Part shown: positions 12,031-23,992 of the stretch, piece after piece
How positions within the stretch are numbered: the first letter of the stretch is position 1
How the letters are laid out: every line of letters starts with the position of its first letter
Source of the DNA: Kaistia hirudinis
Lineage (GTDB): Bacteria > Pseudomonadota > Alphaproteobacteria > Rhizobiales > Kaistiaceae
DNA: 64,000 bases
Assembly (NCBI RefSeq): GCF_014196455.1
Contig: NZ_JACIDS010000001.1
Span: 434,001 to 498,000 of the forward strand
Direction: 5' to 3'
Position numbers and translations under genes: made by a program
Notes under the pieces: generated by a model
The model's input: only the letters and a program-made list of their open reading frames with translations
Databases searched by the model: none
What the model was told of the DNA's origin: nothing

Positions 12031-12074
12031 GTTCTTTGCCGCCGATCGTCGCGATCAGCTCCGCCACCGCCGCG

Positions 12075-12161
12075 TGTCATTGCCGGGCTCGACCCGGCAA
12101 TCCAGCCTTGCCGCCACTGCCCGGGGAGGCCTGGATTGCCGGGTCGAGCCCGGCGATGACA
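12075..12161. repeat. Palindromic intergenic repeat (TGTCATTGCCGGG family)
   Basis: Outer arms TGTCATTGCCGGG and CCGGCGATGACA are inverted copies, and inside them GACCCGGCAATCCAG pairs with CTGGATTGCCGGGTC. The whole unit could fold into one long hairpin. It is related in design to the 93-bp GTCATCCCGG units at 14411-14503 and 21319-21411. Confidence 0.75.
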
Positions 12162-12215
12162 GAGTCGGGTGGCGGCTGACGGAGTTCGAGACCCCGGTGC
12201 CGCTATCCGATGCCC

Positions 12216-14254: not shown

Positions 14255-14410
14255 TAATTCGCGCCAAGCGAATTGTCTCGGGGAAGGCTGTGGCAGAAGA
14301 GGGGATGTGAAGAGGGGAGGCGGGCGGCCAGGTAAGCCCGACGCCTCGACCCGGAGCGCGGAGAAGCTCCCGCAGCCCAGAGGGTCGGCTCCCAGGCCCG
14401 TCCAGATGCC

Positions 14411-14503
14411 GTCATCCCGGCGGAAGCCGGGATCCATTCAGCCTGAGGCGTCTCGTCGTCATGTGCCTCGGCTGCATGGATCCCGGATCAAGTCCGGGAT
14501 GAC
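14411..14503. repeat. 93-bp palindromic repeat (GTCATCCCGG...CCGGGATGAC), intergenic copy
   Basis: The ends GTCATCCCGG (14411-14420) and CCGGGATGAC (14494-14503) are inverted copies, and inner arms AAGCCGGGATCCAT / ATGGATCCCGGATCAAG and CAGCCTGAGGC / GCCTCGGCTG also pair. It lies between the CaiB promoter region and the end of lacI. A copy of the same length is found inside the cobN reading frame at 21319-21411, with about 15 differences by eye, concentrated in the hairpin tip. Confidence 0.85.
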
Positions 14504-14537
14504 GCCGGAGAACGGGGCGACGCCGGCGAATCGAGGC

Positions 14538-17118: not shown

Positions 17119-17174
17119 ACCGTGGCCGTTCTGCCCTTGCGCCCTCCTTGCGAACACTCTAGCGTCGCTTACGG

Positions 17175-17371
17175 CGTTGGTTCCCCCGTTCAGATCGAAG
17201 GGGCGGGGGATGAAATGGGAATCCGGTGCGGAGGTCTCCCCGAAAGGGAGGCGCCAAGGCCGGAGCTGCCCCCGCAACTGTAGACGGCGAGCGACCTCGT
17301 ATCGGGCCACTGGGCAACCGGGAAGGCGACGAGGGAGCGGTGACCCGCAAGCCAGGAGACCAGCCTGCGCC
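17175..17371 (+). ncRNA. Cobalamin riboswitch
   Basis: Conserved parts of the adenosylcobalamin aptamer occur in order: GGGAATCCGGTG at 17217-17228, GCCGGAGCTGCCCCCGCAAC with CTGTAGA following (from about 17259), and the B12 box GCAAGCCAGGAGACC (17347-17361). The end is 41 nt before the cbtB start codon, whose AAAGGAG site could be masked, suggesting translational control. Binding of coenzyme B12 would shut down cobalt uptake and the downstream cob genes. Confidence 0.95.
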
Positions 17372-17412
17372 TCGCTTTGGACTGCCGTCGGTGGGACGGC
17401 AAAGGAGACGAC

Positions 17413-19906: not shown

Positions 19907-22900
19907 ATGCATCTCGTTGCCGGCGAAACGGAGCGGATCGACGACGGCGCCACCGCCGTCGATCTCGATCAATCGCCCGGCGACATCGTCATCCTCTCGG
20001 CGGCCGATTCCGAGCTCGCCGCCTTTGCCGCCGCCGAGGCGCGCGCGGGGGCGGGGCCGAGCCTTCGCCTCGCCAACTGGACCAGGCTGCAGCATCCCTA
20101 TTCCGTCGATCTCTACATCGAGAAGACGCTGGCGAAGTCGAAGCTCGTTTGCCTGCGCATGATGGGCGGCACGGGCTATTGGCCCTATGGCCTCGAGGCG
20201 ATCCGCGCGCTGGCGCGCGGTGGCGGGCCGCAATTGCTGGTCGTGCCCGGCGAGGATCGCTGGGATCCGGCGCTCGCGCCCTATTCGACCGTCGATCCCG
20301 ACGCGGGGCGGCATTTCTGGCGCTGCTGCGTCGAGGCGGGGCCGGACAATATCGGCCGCGCCCTCGGCCTCGCCCGTCATCTCGTCGGCGCCGGCGCGGC
20401 GCCGGACGAACCCGAGCGGCTGCCCGAAATCGGATTCTGGCTGCCGGGTCGCGGCGTGATCGATCGCGATGCGGCGCTTGCCGCGGTTCGTGACCGTCCC
20501 TACGCACCGATCGTCTTCTATCGCGCGCTCATCGAGGGCGGCTCGACCGGGCCGGTCGATACGATGGCCGCTGCGCTCGACCGCGAGGGGTTCGGCGCCG
20601 TCGGCATCTTCGTCACCAGCCTGAAGAAGGGCGAGGTGGCGGATGGGCTCGCCGCTTTCCTCGCCGCGGCGCCGCCCGCCGTGGTGCTCAACGGCACCGC
20701 CTTTGCGCTCTCGAAGCCCGGCCGGAAGCACGAGCCGACCGTGCTCGACGCGCCGGGCCGCCCGGTGTTGCAGATCGTCTTCGCGGGCACCAGCCGCGCC
20801 GCATGGCAGGAATCGAAACGCGGCCTGCCGCCGCGCGACCTGATCATGAATGTGGCCCTGCCCGAGGTGGATGGCCGCATCCTGAGCCGTGCCGTCTCGT
20901 TCAAGGAAGAACTCGCCCGCGACGGCGCGACGGACAGCCGGATCATCGCCTATCGCGCCGACGAGGACCGCATCGCCTTCGTGGCCGCGCTCGCCGCCAA
21001 CTGGGCCCGGCTCGGCCGCAAACCGGCACCGGAGCGCCGGATCGCGCTGATCCTCTCCAACTATCCAGGCCACGACGCCCGCATCGGCAATGGCGTCGGG
21101 CTCGACACGCCGGAAAGCACGACGCGCATCGCCGCCGCCATGGCATCGGCCGGCTATCATCTGCCGGGCTTCCCGCAAACCGGCGCGGCGTTGATGGATG
21201 TGCTGCTCGGGAGGGGGGATGCCGCGGTCTCGTCCCCTCTCCCGCGAAGCGGGGGAGGGTTGGGGAGGGGGCCTGCAGCCGAAGCGTCCGAGGCGGGAGC
21301 CGTTGCATCCGATTCGGCGTCATCCCGGCGAAAGCCGGGATCCATGCAGCCTGAGGCGGTTTATCACCCTGCGCCTCAGCTGAATGGATCCCGGGTCGAG
21401 CCCGGGATGACGGCAGAGGATGGGGGAGGCGAAACAACACTCTCCCTCGCCGCCTACCGCGCCTTTTACGACGCCCTGCCGCCCGCCATTCGCGCCGCGC
21501 TGGCGGAACGCTGGGGCGCGCCGGAGGACGATCCGCACTGCGTCGACGGCGCCTTCCGCCTGCCAATCCATCGTTTCGGTCATGTCGTCGTCGGCATCCA
21601 GCCGGGGCGGGGCTATGCGATCGACCCGAAAGCGACCTATCACGACGCGGACCTCGTGCCGCCGCATCATTATCTCGCCTTCCATGCCTGGCTGCGGCAA
21701 TCGTTCCGCGCCGATGCCGTGGTTCAGGTCGGCAAGCATGGCAATCTCGAATGGCTGCCGGGCAAGGCACTCGGCCTTTCCGCCGAATGCTGGCCGGAAG
21801 TGGCGCTCGGCCCGACGCCGCTCGTCTATCCCTTCATCGTCAATGATCCCGGCGAGGGCGCACAGGCGAAGCGCCGCGCGGCGGCCGTGATCATCGACCA
21901 CCTGATGCCCGCGCTGACCCGTGCCGGGCCACAGGACGCCTTCGCCGAGATCGAGACGCTGATCGACGAATATCATCTCGCCGCCGGCGTCGATCCCAAG
22001 CGGCGCGACCATATCGAGGGCGAGATCCTGGCGCTGGCGGCGCGCTACGGCATCGACCGCGACCTCGCCATCGGCAGCGACGATCCCGACCGGGCGCTCC
22101 GCGCAATCGACGCGCATCTCTGCGACATCAAGGAGTTGCAGATCCGCGACGGGCTGCACCTCTTCGGCGTCAGCCCGCAAGGCGCGGCGCGGATCGACAC
22201 GCTGCTCGCCATCGCCCGCATTCCGCGCACGGGCGGACGGGCGGAGGATGCATCGCTCACCCGCGCGATCGCCTCCGATCTCGGCTTGACCGGCTTCGAC
22301 CCGCTCGCCGCCGATCTCGGCGCGGACTGGCACGGGGAGCGGCCGGCAGCGCTGGCGGGGCTCGGCGACGGGGCATGGCGGACGCAGGGCGACACCGTCG
22401 AGCGGATCGAGGCACTGGCGCGGGAGTGGGTGGGGTCAGCCCTTCTCCCTTCTCCCCCGTGGGGGAGGATCGGGGAGGGGGGAGCCGTCCCGAACGGAGA
22501 CACCTCGGCCTCTTCACCTCTCCCAGAGGGAGAGGTCGGCCCGCAGGGCCGGGTGAGGGGTTACGGCCTCACCGGAGAATTCCCTAACCCCTCACCCGCC
22601 GGCCTTCGGCCGTCGACCTCTCCCTCCGGGAGAGGTGATGAGGCCTTTCCGCCTCCGCCCGGCCCCGCCACCGCGCCGATCCTTGACTGGATCGCCACCG
22701 ACCTCGCCCCAGCGCTCGATCGTTCCGGCGCGGATGAGATCGCCGGCGTGCTCGGCGCGCTGGATGGCCGTTTCGTACCGCCGGGCCCCTCCGGCGCGCC
22801 GTCGCGGGGGCGGGCCGACGTGCTGCCGACGGGCCGGAACTTCTACGCCGTCGATACGCGCGCGATCCCGACCGAGGCCGCTTGGCGGCTGGGGCGCGCC

Positions 22901-23992
22901 GCGGCGGAAGCGCTGGTGATGCGCTATCTCCAGGACGAGGGCGAATGGCCGCGCTCGGTCGCCATCTCCGCCTGGGGTACGGCGAACATGCGCACTGGTG
23001 GCGACGACATCGCGCAGGTTCTGGCGCTGATCGGCGCCGAACCCGTCTGGGAGCCGGGAACGGGCCGCGTCACCGGCTTCCGCGTCCTGACGCTCGCCGA
23101 GCTGAAGCGGCCACGGGTCGATGTGACCTTGCGGATCTCCGGCCTTTTCCGCGACGCCTTTCCCGAGCAGATCGACCTGATCGATTCCGCCATCCGCGCC
23201 ATTGCCGAGCGCGAGGAAGACGAGAGCGCCAATCCGCTCGCCGCCGCTCGCCGCCGCGATCTCCACGCCGCCCGCATCTTCGGCGCGGCGCCTGGAGCCT
23301 ATGGCAGCGGATTGCAGACGCTGGTCGATCATTCGATCTGGTCCGACAAGCGCGAACTCGCCACAGCCTTCCAGGCCGCCAGCGCCTATCGCTATGGTGC
23401 CGGCGTCGATGGCGTCGCGGCGGAAGAGGCGCTGTCCGCCCGCCTCGCCTCGATCGACGTCGTCGTCCAGAACCAGGACAATCGCGAGCACGACATTCTC
23501 GACAGCGACGAGTACTGGCAGTTCCAGGGCGGCCTCGCCGCATCGGTCGAGCAGGCCCGTGGTTCGGCGCCGCGACTCTATTTCGGCGACCATGCCCGCG
23601 CCGAGACGCCCATCGTCCGTCCGCTCACCGAGGAGATCGGGCGGGTCGTGCGCGGCCGGGCGACCAACCCGAAATGGATCGCCGGCTGCATGCGCCATGG
23701 CTATCGCGGCGCCAGCGAGATGGCATCGACCGTCGACTTCCTGTTCGGCTATGCCGCGACCACCCATGCCGTCGGCGATCATCATTTCGATGCGCTCTAT
23801 GACGCCTATCTCGGCGACGAGCGCGTCCGCGCCTTCATCGGTTTCGCCAATGGCGGCGCGCTGGCGACGATGGCGGAGCGTTTTGCCGAGGCGATCGAGC
23901 GCGACCTGTGGTCGCCGCGCCGCAACAGCGTACACCAGCATCTGGCTGAACTGAGCCGCAACCGGCCGCAGTCATGGAAGGACATGGAATGA
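19907..23992 (+). CDS. cobN: Aerobic cobaltochelatase subunit CobN, with two in-frame repeat-derived insertions
   Basis: CobN is the large subunit that inserts cobalt into hydrogenobyrinate a,c-diamide together with the CobST ATPase. Family landmarks are present throughout: LRMMGGTGYWPYG near residue 83, QVGKHGNLEWLPGKALGLS near 607, DGRFVPPGPSGAPSRGR near 950, DVLPTGRNFYAVDTR and WGTANMRTGGDDIAQ. At 1361 codons it is longer than expected for this enzyme. The excess lies in two segments, about residues 439-507 and 845-918, that are low-complexity, Pro/Gly/Ser-rich and encoded by palindromic repeats. Both segments fall between conserved blocks, and the frame stays open, so the protein is probably still made and active. 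cobO overlaps the stop codon as ATGA. Confidence 0.95.
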   Translation: MHLVAGETERIDDGATAVDLDQSPGDIVILSAADSELAAFAAAEARAGAGPSLRLANWTRLQHPYSVDLYIEKTLAKSKLVCLRMMGGTGYWPYGLEAIRALARGGGPQLLVVPGEDRWDPALAPYSTVDPDAGRHFWRCCVEAGPDNIGRALGLARHLVGAGAAPDEPERLPEIGFWLPGRGVIDRDAALAAVRDRPYAPIVFYRALIEGGSTGPVDTMAAALDREGFGAVGIFVTSLKKGEVADGLAAFLAAAPPAVVLNGTAFALSKPGRKHEPTVLDAPGRPVLQIVFAGTSRAAWQESKRGLPPRDLIMNVALPEVDGRILSRAVSFKEELARDGATDSRIIAYRADEDRIAFVAALAANWARLGRKPAPERRIALILSNYPGHDARIGNGVGLDTPESTTRIAAAMASAGYHLPGFPQTGAALMDVLLGRGDAAVSSPLPRSGGGLGRGPAAEASEAGAVASDSASSRRKPGSMQPEAVYHPAPQLNGSRVEPGMTAEDGGGETTLSLAAYRAFYDALPPAIRAALAERWGAPEDDPHCVDGAFRLPIHRFGHVVVGIQPGRGYAIDPKATYHDADLVPPHHYLAFHAWLRQSFRADAVVQVGKHGNLEWLPGKALGLSAECWPEVALGPTPLVYPFIVNDPGEGAQAKRRAAAVIIDHLMPALTRAGPQDAFAEIETLIDEYHLAAGVDPKRRDHIEGEILALAARYGIDRDLAIGSDDPDRALRAIDAHLCDIKELQIRDGLHLFGVSPQGAARIDTLLAIARIPRTGGRAEDASLTRAIASDLGLTGFDPLAADLGADWHGERPAALAGLGDGAWRTQGDTVERIEALAREWVGSALLPSPPWGRIGEGGAVPNGDTSASSPLPEGEVGPQGRVRGYGLTGEFPNPSPAGLRPSTSPSGRGDEAFPPPPGPATAPILDWIATDLAPALDRSGADEIAGVLGALDGRFVPPGPSGAPSRGRADVLPTGRNFYAVDTRAIPTEAAWRLGRAAAEALVMRYLQDEGEWPRSVAISAWGTANMRTGGDDIAQVLALIGAEPVWEPGTGRVTGFRVLTLAELKRPRVDVTLRISGLFRDAFPEQIDLIDSAIRAIAEREEDESANPLAAARRRDLHAARIFGAAPGAYGSGLQTLVDHSIWSDKRELATAFQAASAYRYGAGVDGVAAEEALSARLASIDVVVQNQDNREHDILDSDEYWQFQGGLAASVEQARGSAPRLYFGDHARAETPIVRPLTEEIGRVVRGRATNPKWIAGCMRHGYRGASEMASTVDFLFGYAATTHAVGDHHFDALYDAYLGDERVRAFIGFANGGALATMAERFAEAIERDLWSPRRNSVHQHLAELSRNRPQSWKDME
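21231..21270. repeat. CTCCC...GGGGAGGGG palindromic element inside cobN
   Basis: CTCTCCCGCGAAGCGGGGGAGGG followed by TGGGGAGGGG forms a short hairpin core of the same style as the elements at 11957-12030 and 22441-22485. It is the left part of the first insertion in the cobN frame and is read as SSPLPRSGGGLGRG. Confidence 0.7.
21319..21411. repeat. 93-bp palindromic repeat, coding copy inside cobN
   Basis: Inverted ends GTCATCCCGG (21319-21328) and CCGGGATGAC (21402-21411) and inner arms AAGCCGGGATCCAT / ATGGATCCCGGG match the intergenic copy at 14411-14503 in length and layout. Being 93 bp (31 codons) and stop-free in this frame, it is translated as part of CobN, including SSRRKPGSMQPEA and NGSRVEPGMTAE. 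Confidence 0.9.
22441..22485. repeat. Second CTCCC...GGGGAGG element inside cobN
   Basis: TTCTCCCCCGTGGGGGAGGA followed by TCGGGGAGGGGGG gives the same hairpin-plus-G-run pattern as the elements at 21231-21270 and 11957-12030. It opens the second insertion of cobN and is read as LLPSPPWGRIGEGG. Confidence 0.7.
22508..22644. repeat. Long imperfect palindrome (CACCTCTCCC...GGGAGAGGTG) inside cobN
   Basis: The outer arms CACCTCTCCC (22515-22524) and GGGAGAGGTG (22628-22637) are inverted copies; GGCCGGGTGAGGGG (22547-22560) faces CCCCTCACCCGCCGGCC (22588-22604) as inner arms. Each outer arm also contains its own small hairpin. The whole element is read without a stop in the cobN frame. Confidence 0.85.

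Follow-up and report, generated by a model that had tools for sequence, protein, structure and literature searches.

Dispersed palindromic repeats lie in frame within two loops of CobN in Kaistia hirudinis, and CTCCC-class repeats bracket DUF559 nuclease genes

The cobaltochelatase gene cobN of Kaistia hirudinis contains two in-frame inserts made up of palindromic repeats that are dispersed through the genome, and the same two loops of CobN are expanded, by elements of several classes, in other species and families. We conclude that the inserted segments are very probably genomic parasite DNA rather than a CobN domain, with two dispersed palindrome families, a CGTC-tagged REP pair and CTCCC-class hairpins, having inserted where flexible surface linkers are coded. 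CTCCC-class repeats also bracket genes for DUF559 nucleases, in this genome and in others.

Two repeat-bearing inserts in cobN

The window analysed here is a stretch of 64,000 nucleotides from a 5.26 Mb genome in 14 contigs. Its cobN ORF runs for 1361 aa with zero internal stops, and the product matches the Pfam CobN-Mg_chel profile over positions 2-1088 of 1090 and also matches NCBIfam TIGR02257. A cobalamin riboswitch lies upstream (17161-17382, 115.5 bits), which together with the otherwise intact CobN suggests that the B12 pathway is working. The features discussed below are as follows, in window coordinates.

14410-14504, strand not assigned: sister type A pair, intergenic (unit 14411-14503)
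19907-23992, plus strand: cobN, cobaltochelatase large subunit, 1361 aa, frame intact
21221-21439, plus strand: site 1 insert in CobN, residues ~438-507, missing from relatives or replaced there, predicted as coil with pLDDT <50
21233-21271, plus strand: type B element, a CCCTCTCCC...GGGGGAGGG hairpin with a GTTGGGGAGGGGG tail (CTCCC...GGGGAGG)
21318-21412, plus strand: type A element, a CGTC-tagged REP pair by its ends and arms, made up of the 93-bp unit (21319-21411) with an outer C and G
22442-22643, plus strand: site 2 insert in CobN, residues ~846-915, predicted coil with pLDDT <50 over 849-911
22442-22483, plus strand: second type B element
22510-22643, plus strand: type C element, a ACCTCTCCC hairpin pair with inner arms CCGGGTGAGGGG and CCCCTCACCCG

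An in-frame insert with repeats makes up CobN residues ~438-507. The initial annotation, made from the letters of this DNA, had placed residues about 439-507 outside the conserved CobN layout; in our alignment, 83 aa separate the anchors in this protein versus 19 aa between the same anchors in G001 (putatively Kaistia soli). The CTCCC...GGGGAGG element and the 93-bp unit that it had described were both located in the insert, and to these we add a second insert of like nature, site 2. The type B element of site 1 matches, at 81% over 37 bp, repeats that neighbour a DUF559 gene in this genome, and that of site 2 matches both repeats flanking the DUF559 gene at G000:C2:489605-489919 at 86% over 42 bp. 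Type C is a dispersed repeat found at many further places in this genome, and the cobN element is 92% alike over 130 bp to a copy that directly adjoins the DUF559 gene at G000:C3:270766-271089.

We modelled CobN residues 320-960, a model whose best structural match is Mycobacterium tuberculosis CobN (7c6o, E 1.6e-21). Both inserts were predicted as coil, the first between helix 426-433 and strand 510-513 and the second between helices 827-846 and 923-952. Because the model was built from 21 sequences and reached a mean pLDDT of 66.5 (pTM 0.65), the low pLDDT of the inserts is weak proof of their disorder.

The 93-bp unit has the ends and arms of a CGTC-tagged REP pair

The ends and arms of the 93-bp unit identify it as a CGTC-tagged REP pair. 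The outer CGTC tag is present at 21318-21321 and, on the opposite strand, at 21412-21409. One half reads ATCCCGGC/GAAA/GCCGGGAT as stem, loop and stem, which fits an AT-starting stem of 8 or 9 bp with a loop of 4 or 5, and the other half gives a REP stem-loop on the opposite strand, ATCCCGGG/CTCGA/CCCGGGAT. An unpaired CCA tail follows both stems, and the two units are inverted with their tags outermost (the 'head' of head-to-head dimers is undefined in the available text of PMC3733652). Folding of the unit gave -39.6 kcal/mol (z -8.5), and 0 of 200 shuffles folded equally well. The intergenic sister at 14411-14503, which had been noted as a copy of the same length with about 15 differences by eye, is indeed 93 bp long and 84% identical to the cobN unit (~15 differences).

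The unit is dispersed across the genome, as 91 exact CGTC half-units against 0 for a control pattern show that its distribution is not due to chance. As in CGTC-tagged REPs, copies are numerous and mostly intergenic: 29 of the 30 best loci, from a search that scored the best 40 of 96 first-look candidates, were not judged intragenic. The cobN copy alone had coding-like sequence on both sides and one spanning frame; in terms of the count of intergenic against coding copies suggested at the outset, cobN is the sole intragenic locus among these 30. A parallel search for type C, scoring the best 40 of 70 candidates, yielded 29 loci at 27 distinct places, with both cobN rows passing the coding test. 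Across the 30 CGTC-unit loci and the 27 type C places, the cobN copies were the sole ones judged to sit within a genuine gene. One other type C candidate, L222, cleared the codon score in both flanks and lacked a Pfam match; it was judged an antisense frame and rejected. Shadow ORFs at L013, L221, L222, L027, L024 (plus strand), L009 and L012 were likewise rejected as host genes for want of a Pfam match. At L024 (minus strand) and L026 the repeat precedes the Pfam domain and is therefore probably ahead of the start codon.

Three further arrangements were seen in this genome. A TGTC-tagged inverted pair with 52-nt arms, 81% complementary, occupies 12061-12175 of the window and is apparently intergenic. 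CGTC units run head to tail at G000:C1:248888-249966 with a period of 247 bp (starts at 248888, 249135, 249382, 249629 and 249876), and G000:C5:87001-89221 holds eight CGTC half-units in four divergent pairs over ~2.2 kb.

The length of the unit, a multiple of three, is exactly 93 bp in 24 of the 29 unit loci compared in this genome. Within cobN it is read as SSRRKPGSMQPEA...NGSRVEPGMT, and this frame is open in all 23 full-length copies outside cobN, while the remaining five frames are open in 2, 0, 7, 8 and 1 of them; for resampled sequence, any given frame of the unit would be expected to be open in 0.61 of cases. Since the copies share descent, the open frame is a property of the element and not 23 independent events. 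With one of six frames open in every full-length copy checked and a length divisible by three, the unit could enter genes harmlessly. The initial annotation had likened it to the Rickettsia palindromic elements (RPE). The likeness holds in behaviour, that of a dispersed palindrome leaving the host frame open, and the reading as an in-frame dispersed palindromic repeat, RPE-like in kind, is supported. By sequence, however, the unit belongs with the CGTC-tagged REPs, and the insertion is not a single event, since two loops appear to have been entered repeatedly in several families.

Expanded CobN loops recur across families

An order-wide CobN search matched 258 of 297 genomes; 100 regions taken from among the matches listed were aligned with 24 earlier ones and the K. 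hirudinis protein (n = 125), giving a non-random sample in which the nearest CobN type and the family of K. hirudinis are over-represented. Loops were called expanded at ≥35 aa (loop 1) or ≥20 aa (loop 2). By this measure loop 1 was expanded in 21/125 proteins, loop 2 in 28/124, either in 36/125 and both in 13, all confined to five of the 35 family codes sampled (f1, f14, f22, f28 and f34). Unexpanded loops were fairly uniform, with 22-24 aa in 73 of 104 rows for loop 1 (others between 13 and 29) and 8-9 aa in 75 of 96 rows for loop 2 (others between 6 and 19), and five Kaistiaceae-group genomes had short loops. A tree built without the loop columns required at least 9 changes for loop 1 and at least 12 for loop 2, where gain and loss are indistinguishable and 33 forks among the 122 inner branches of this quick tree are open.

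The initial annotation had named, as a reading that would refute its own, an ancient CobN domain with no relation to the repeats. The alignment it had called for rules this candidate out, since site 1 in relatives is either short or filled with other repeats. For the broader notion of an old CobN domain or linker that is repetitive by chance, we found nothing beyond the conserved position of the loops; given the dispersed DNA copies, the other DNA at the site in relatives and the many short loops, we assign it next to no probability.

Most expanded loops carry a hairpin signal. Relative to codon shuffles, 39 of 49 had a hairpin signal of z ≤ -2 (20/21 for loop 1, 19/28 for loop 2), the exceptions being G093 in loop 1 and G004, G017, G254, G131, G161, G247, G026, G054 and G185 in loop 2. 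With 10/49 lacking a clear signal, some expanded loops may be decayed or of other origin. Sorted by eye, the inserts fall into classes A (CGTC pairs), B, C, D and E. In the CobN of G016, CGTC pairs are read in different frames in the two loops (SSRRKPE and VIPAKAGIH), and its site 2 insert matches many places in the G016 genome. The site 2 insert of G060 matches dispersed repeats in G060, G254, G192 and G165. Dispersal outside the K. hirudinis genome was checked for G016 and G060 and, with the G060 query, for G254, G192 and G165; these varied frames and dispersed insert DNAs indicate that what recurs is the DNA unit and not the peptide. No target-site duplication and no same-species empty-site pair was found for the CobN inserts.

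Hairpins this strong in the mRNA sense raise the question of whether the inserts are kept for a function, either in the RNA, where a hairpin could slow translation or shield the message, or in the protein, where the peptide could bind a partner, and REPs have been reported as RNA elements (PMC3733652, available text). We regard such retention as quite improbable, because element, frame and length vary within a genus and the loops are short in the five Kaistiaceae-group genomes; neutral turnover fits better.

We also scanned the full length of the aligned proteins other than G005 and G013 for inserts of ≥12 aa, and the rows concentrated at loops 1 and 2. A third entry point, after K. hirudinis residue 420, is used by 6 of 11 proteins of a sixth family (f6). 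In two f6 species (G201 L187 and G277 L188) the insert at this point contains an in-frame DUF559 domain (PF04480, E 2.8e-33 and 2.4e-26), bracketed in G201 by direct copies (160 bp, 84% alike) and in G277 by inverted copies (42 bp, 95% alike). Lone inserts occur elsewhere, for example 91 aa in G049 after K. hirudinis residue 193. The CobN of G015 (L034) has a nearly identical element composite at both loops and a repeat-rich insert of 114 aa after K. hirudinis residue 50.

This clustering could in principle reflect insertion aimed at cobN or at the DNA of its loops, whether site-specific, by homing or by gene conversion, instead of random entry followed by selection for tolerance. Consistent with aim, no locus examined in the K. 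hirudinis genome other than cobN has a clearly intragenic copy, cobN holds several elements, the two loops of G015 share a near-identical composite, and a DUF559 domain sits at the same third point in two f6 species. Set against this, the exact entry points vary within the loops, the element classes and frames are unrelated, no common target sequence was found at the CobN entry points, and many copies sit elsewhere in the genome. On balance we judge aimed insertion unlikely.

The course of events that we favour is one of random entry and selective loss. The repeats would insert by an active process, and most entries into genes would be lost through selection. Copies would persist in the CobN linkers when the insert preserves the frame and adds no stop, tolerance of disordered loops being the probable reason for their place, and the inserted segment would then be translated in the cell. 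As elements are gained, lost and swapped, the loops would be rewritten, and such turnover would account for species of one genus with different inserts at the same two points.

CTCCC-class repeats accompany DUF559 nuclease genes

The K. hirudinis genome has two DUF559 genes. One, with an abutting type C copy (L231), lies between a trpB-like gene and trpA; the other lies between genes for FAD-binding and iron-sulphur subunits and is flanked by two 144-bp copies of a type B pair, 92% alike. In relatives, a CTCCC-class hairpin was found within 300 bp of DUF559 at 22/23 loci versus 0/25 ParE toxin loci from the same genome set, and in 1/23 control windows 1000-1300 bp away, a test that was not blind, as the hairpin class had been set following an initial inspection. 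Hairpins of any class were found at 22/23 DUF559 versus 3/25 ParE loci, and repeats common to both flanks at 15/23 versus 0/25.

A class-wide draw, in which 43 of 115 genomes had DUF559, was scored with the rule unchanged. CTCCC-class hairpins were present at 20/25 DUF559 loci, flank repeats at 18/25 and hairpins in far windows at 1/25, compared with the ParE control from the order-level set; four of the five misses had flank repeats and one (L316) had neither. Loci cut by a contig end were left out of these counts (8/31 DUF559, 5/30 ParE and 4/29 class-level), and the Fisher tests assume independent loci. Within Kaistia, ten DUF559 loci occupy seven different places. Among 22 f1 survey genomes (counted without G019, G021, G022, G023, G025 and G027), DUF559 was present in 16/17 with an expanded CobN loop versus 0/5 without (p 0.0002), the sole miss among the expanded being a fragmented assembly (G006); since four of the five unexpanded genomes form one clade, independent support for this link is thin.

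The DUF559 nuclease may cut or copy CTCCC-class elements, those of cobN included, and is the best candidate for doing so, by association and not by proof. In a bolder form, which we consider evenly balanced between right and wrong, DUF559 (a Vsr-like nuclease) and its flanking CTCCC-class palindromes would make up a so far unrecognised kind of minimal mobile element in Alphaproteobacteria, in which the nuclease would move the palindromes in the way proposed for RAYT and GTAG REPs but by another chemistry, solo ends and whole cassettes would enter genes in frame, and the three CobN loops would record this activity. Less likely, though far from negligible, is a role of DUF559 genes as passengers or defence nucleases to which CTCCC palindromes offer a place to land and which do not move them. 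Insertion sequences are known to target REPs (PMC3733652, available text), DUF559 resembles Vsr repair nucleases (a weak match to NCBIfam TIGR00632) and, by weak PADLOC matches, parts of defence proteins, and the DUF559-bearing VsrA of Caulobacter is considered in PMC12907096 (available text) as an enzyme of mismatch repair. Passengers would not so readily explain repeats on both sides of the gene (CTCCC-class in 12/23 loci of relatives and 9/25 class-wide) or inverted pairs across it (15/23 and 15/25), as element ends would give, against 0/25 for ParE.

The 93-bp CGTC unit stands apart from this association. DUF559 was rejected as its mobiliser, as the DUF559 flanks hold CTCCC-class hairpins and no part of the unit matched at either K. 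hirudinis DUF559 locus (L231, L232). A tyrosine transposase as mobiliser of the repeats was rejected too: PF01797 (Y1_Tnp) had no match in this one genome, and 5 of 14 control genomes matched. We found no partner gene for CGTC units here, nor, in the available text of PMC3733652, did Di Nocera et al. report one for CGTC REPs.

Comparison with known systems

In-frame palindromes have hitherto counted as scattered oddities. CobN offers a repeated natural experiment, in which several repeat classes occupy the same loops in many species and the enzyme is apparently kept, and its loops show where a protein accepts new peptide and how repeats turn into protein sequence. The DUF559 link in turn makes it testable which enzyme spreads the common CTCCC-type palindromes. 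In the open-access literature searched, neither cobN inserts nor an association of DUF559 with palindromes came up, which does not prove absence, and neither did a partner enzyme for CTCCC-type palindromes; the main text of PMC3733652 does not contain cobN, and that of PMC12907096 does not contain 'palindrom'.

Intragenic CGTC REPs and RPE are already in print (PMC3733652, PMC10969869, as far as their available text goes). CGTC-tagged REPs were described by Di Nocera et al. in 2013 (PMC3733652), whose available text already reports copies within genes of several species. Type A shares with them the CGTC tag, the AT-starting 8-bp stem, loops of 4 or 5 bp, the CCA tail, pairing at about one spacer's distance, abundance in an alphaproteobacterium, intragenic copies and the lack of an attached transposase. 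One case given there concerns REPs at about the same site of recB in two Xanthomonas; unlike this instance of one gene in two species, two cobN loops are entered in five family codes. The same source equates RPE-6 with CGTC-1. RPE, palindromic units in frame within genes (Ogata et al. 2000, 2002, as cited in the available text of PMC10969869 and PMC5896051), have in common with the CobN inserts that in-frame palindromes stand in working proteins with the element frame open, and the cobN insert, too, is an in-frame insertion in a conserved gene. RPE belong to other bacteria, and the CobN loops differ from them in bringing together several repeat classes and frames at the same points of one gene.

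The closest parallel for the DUF559 loci is the REPtron, a RAYT transposase with GTAG REPs (PMC3733652, available text): in both, the gene of a small DNA-cutting enzyme is bracketed by palindromes scattered through the genome. The REPtron enzyme is an HUH tyrosine transposase, whereas DUF559 has by annotation a Vsr-like nuclease fold, and the K. hirudinis genome has no Y1_Tnp match. Caulobacter VsrA shares the Pfam domain DUF559/PF04480 and is assigned a Vsr-like repair role in the available text of PMC12907096. As in the REPtron, DUF559 genes are bracketed by a dispersed repeat family, and it is these bracketing repeats that the type B and type C elements of cobN match.
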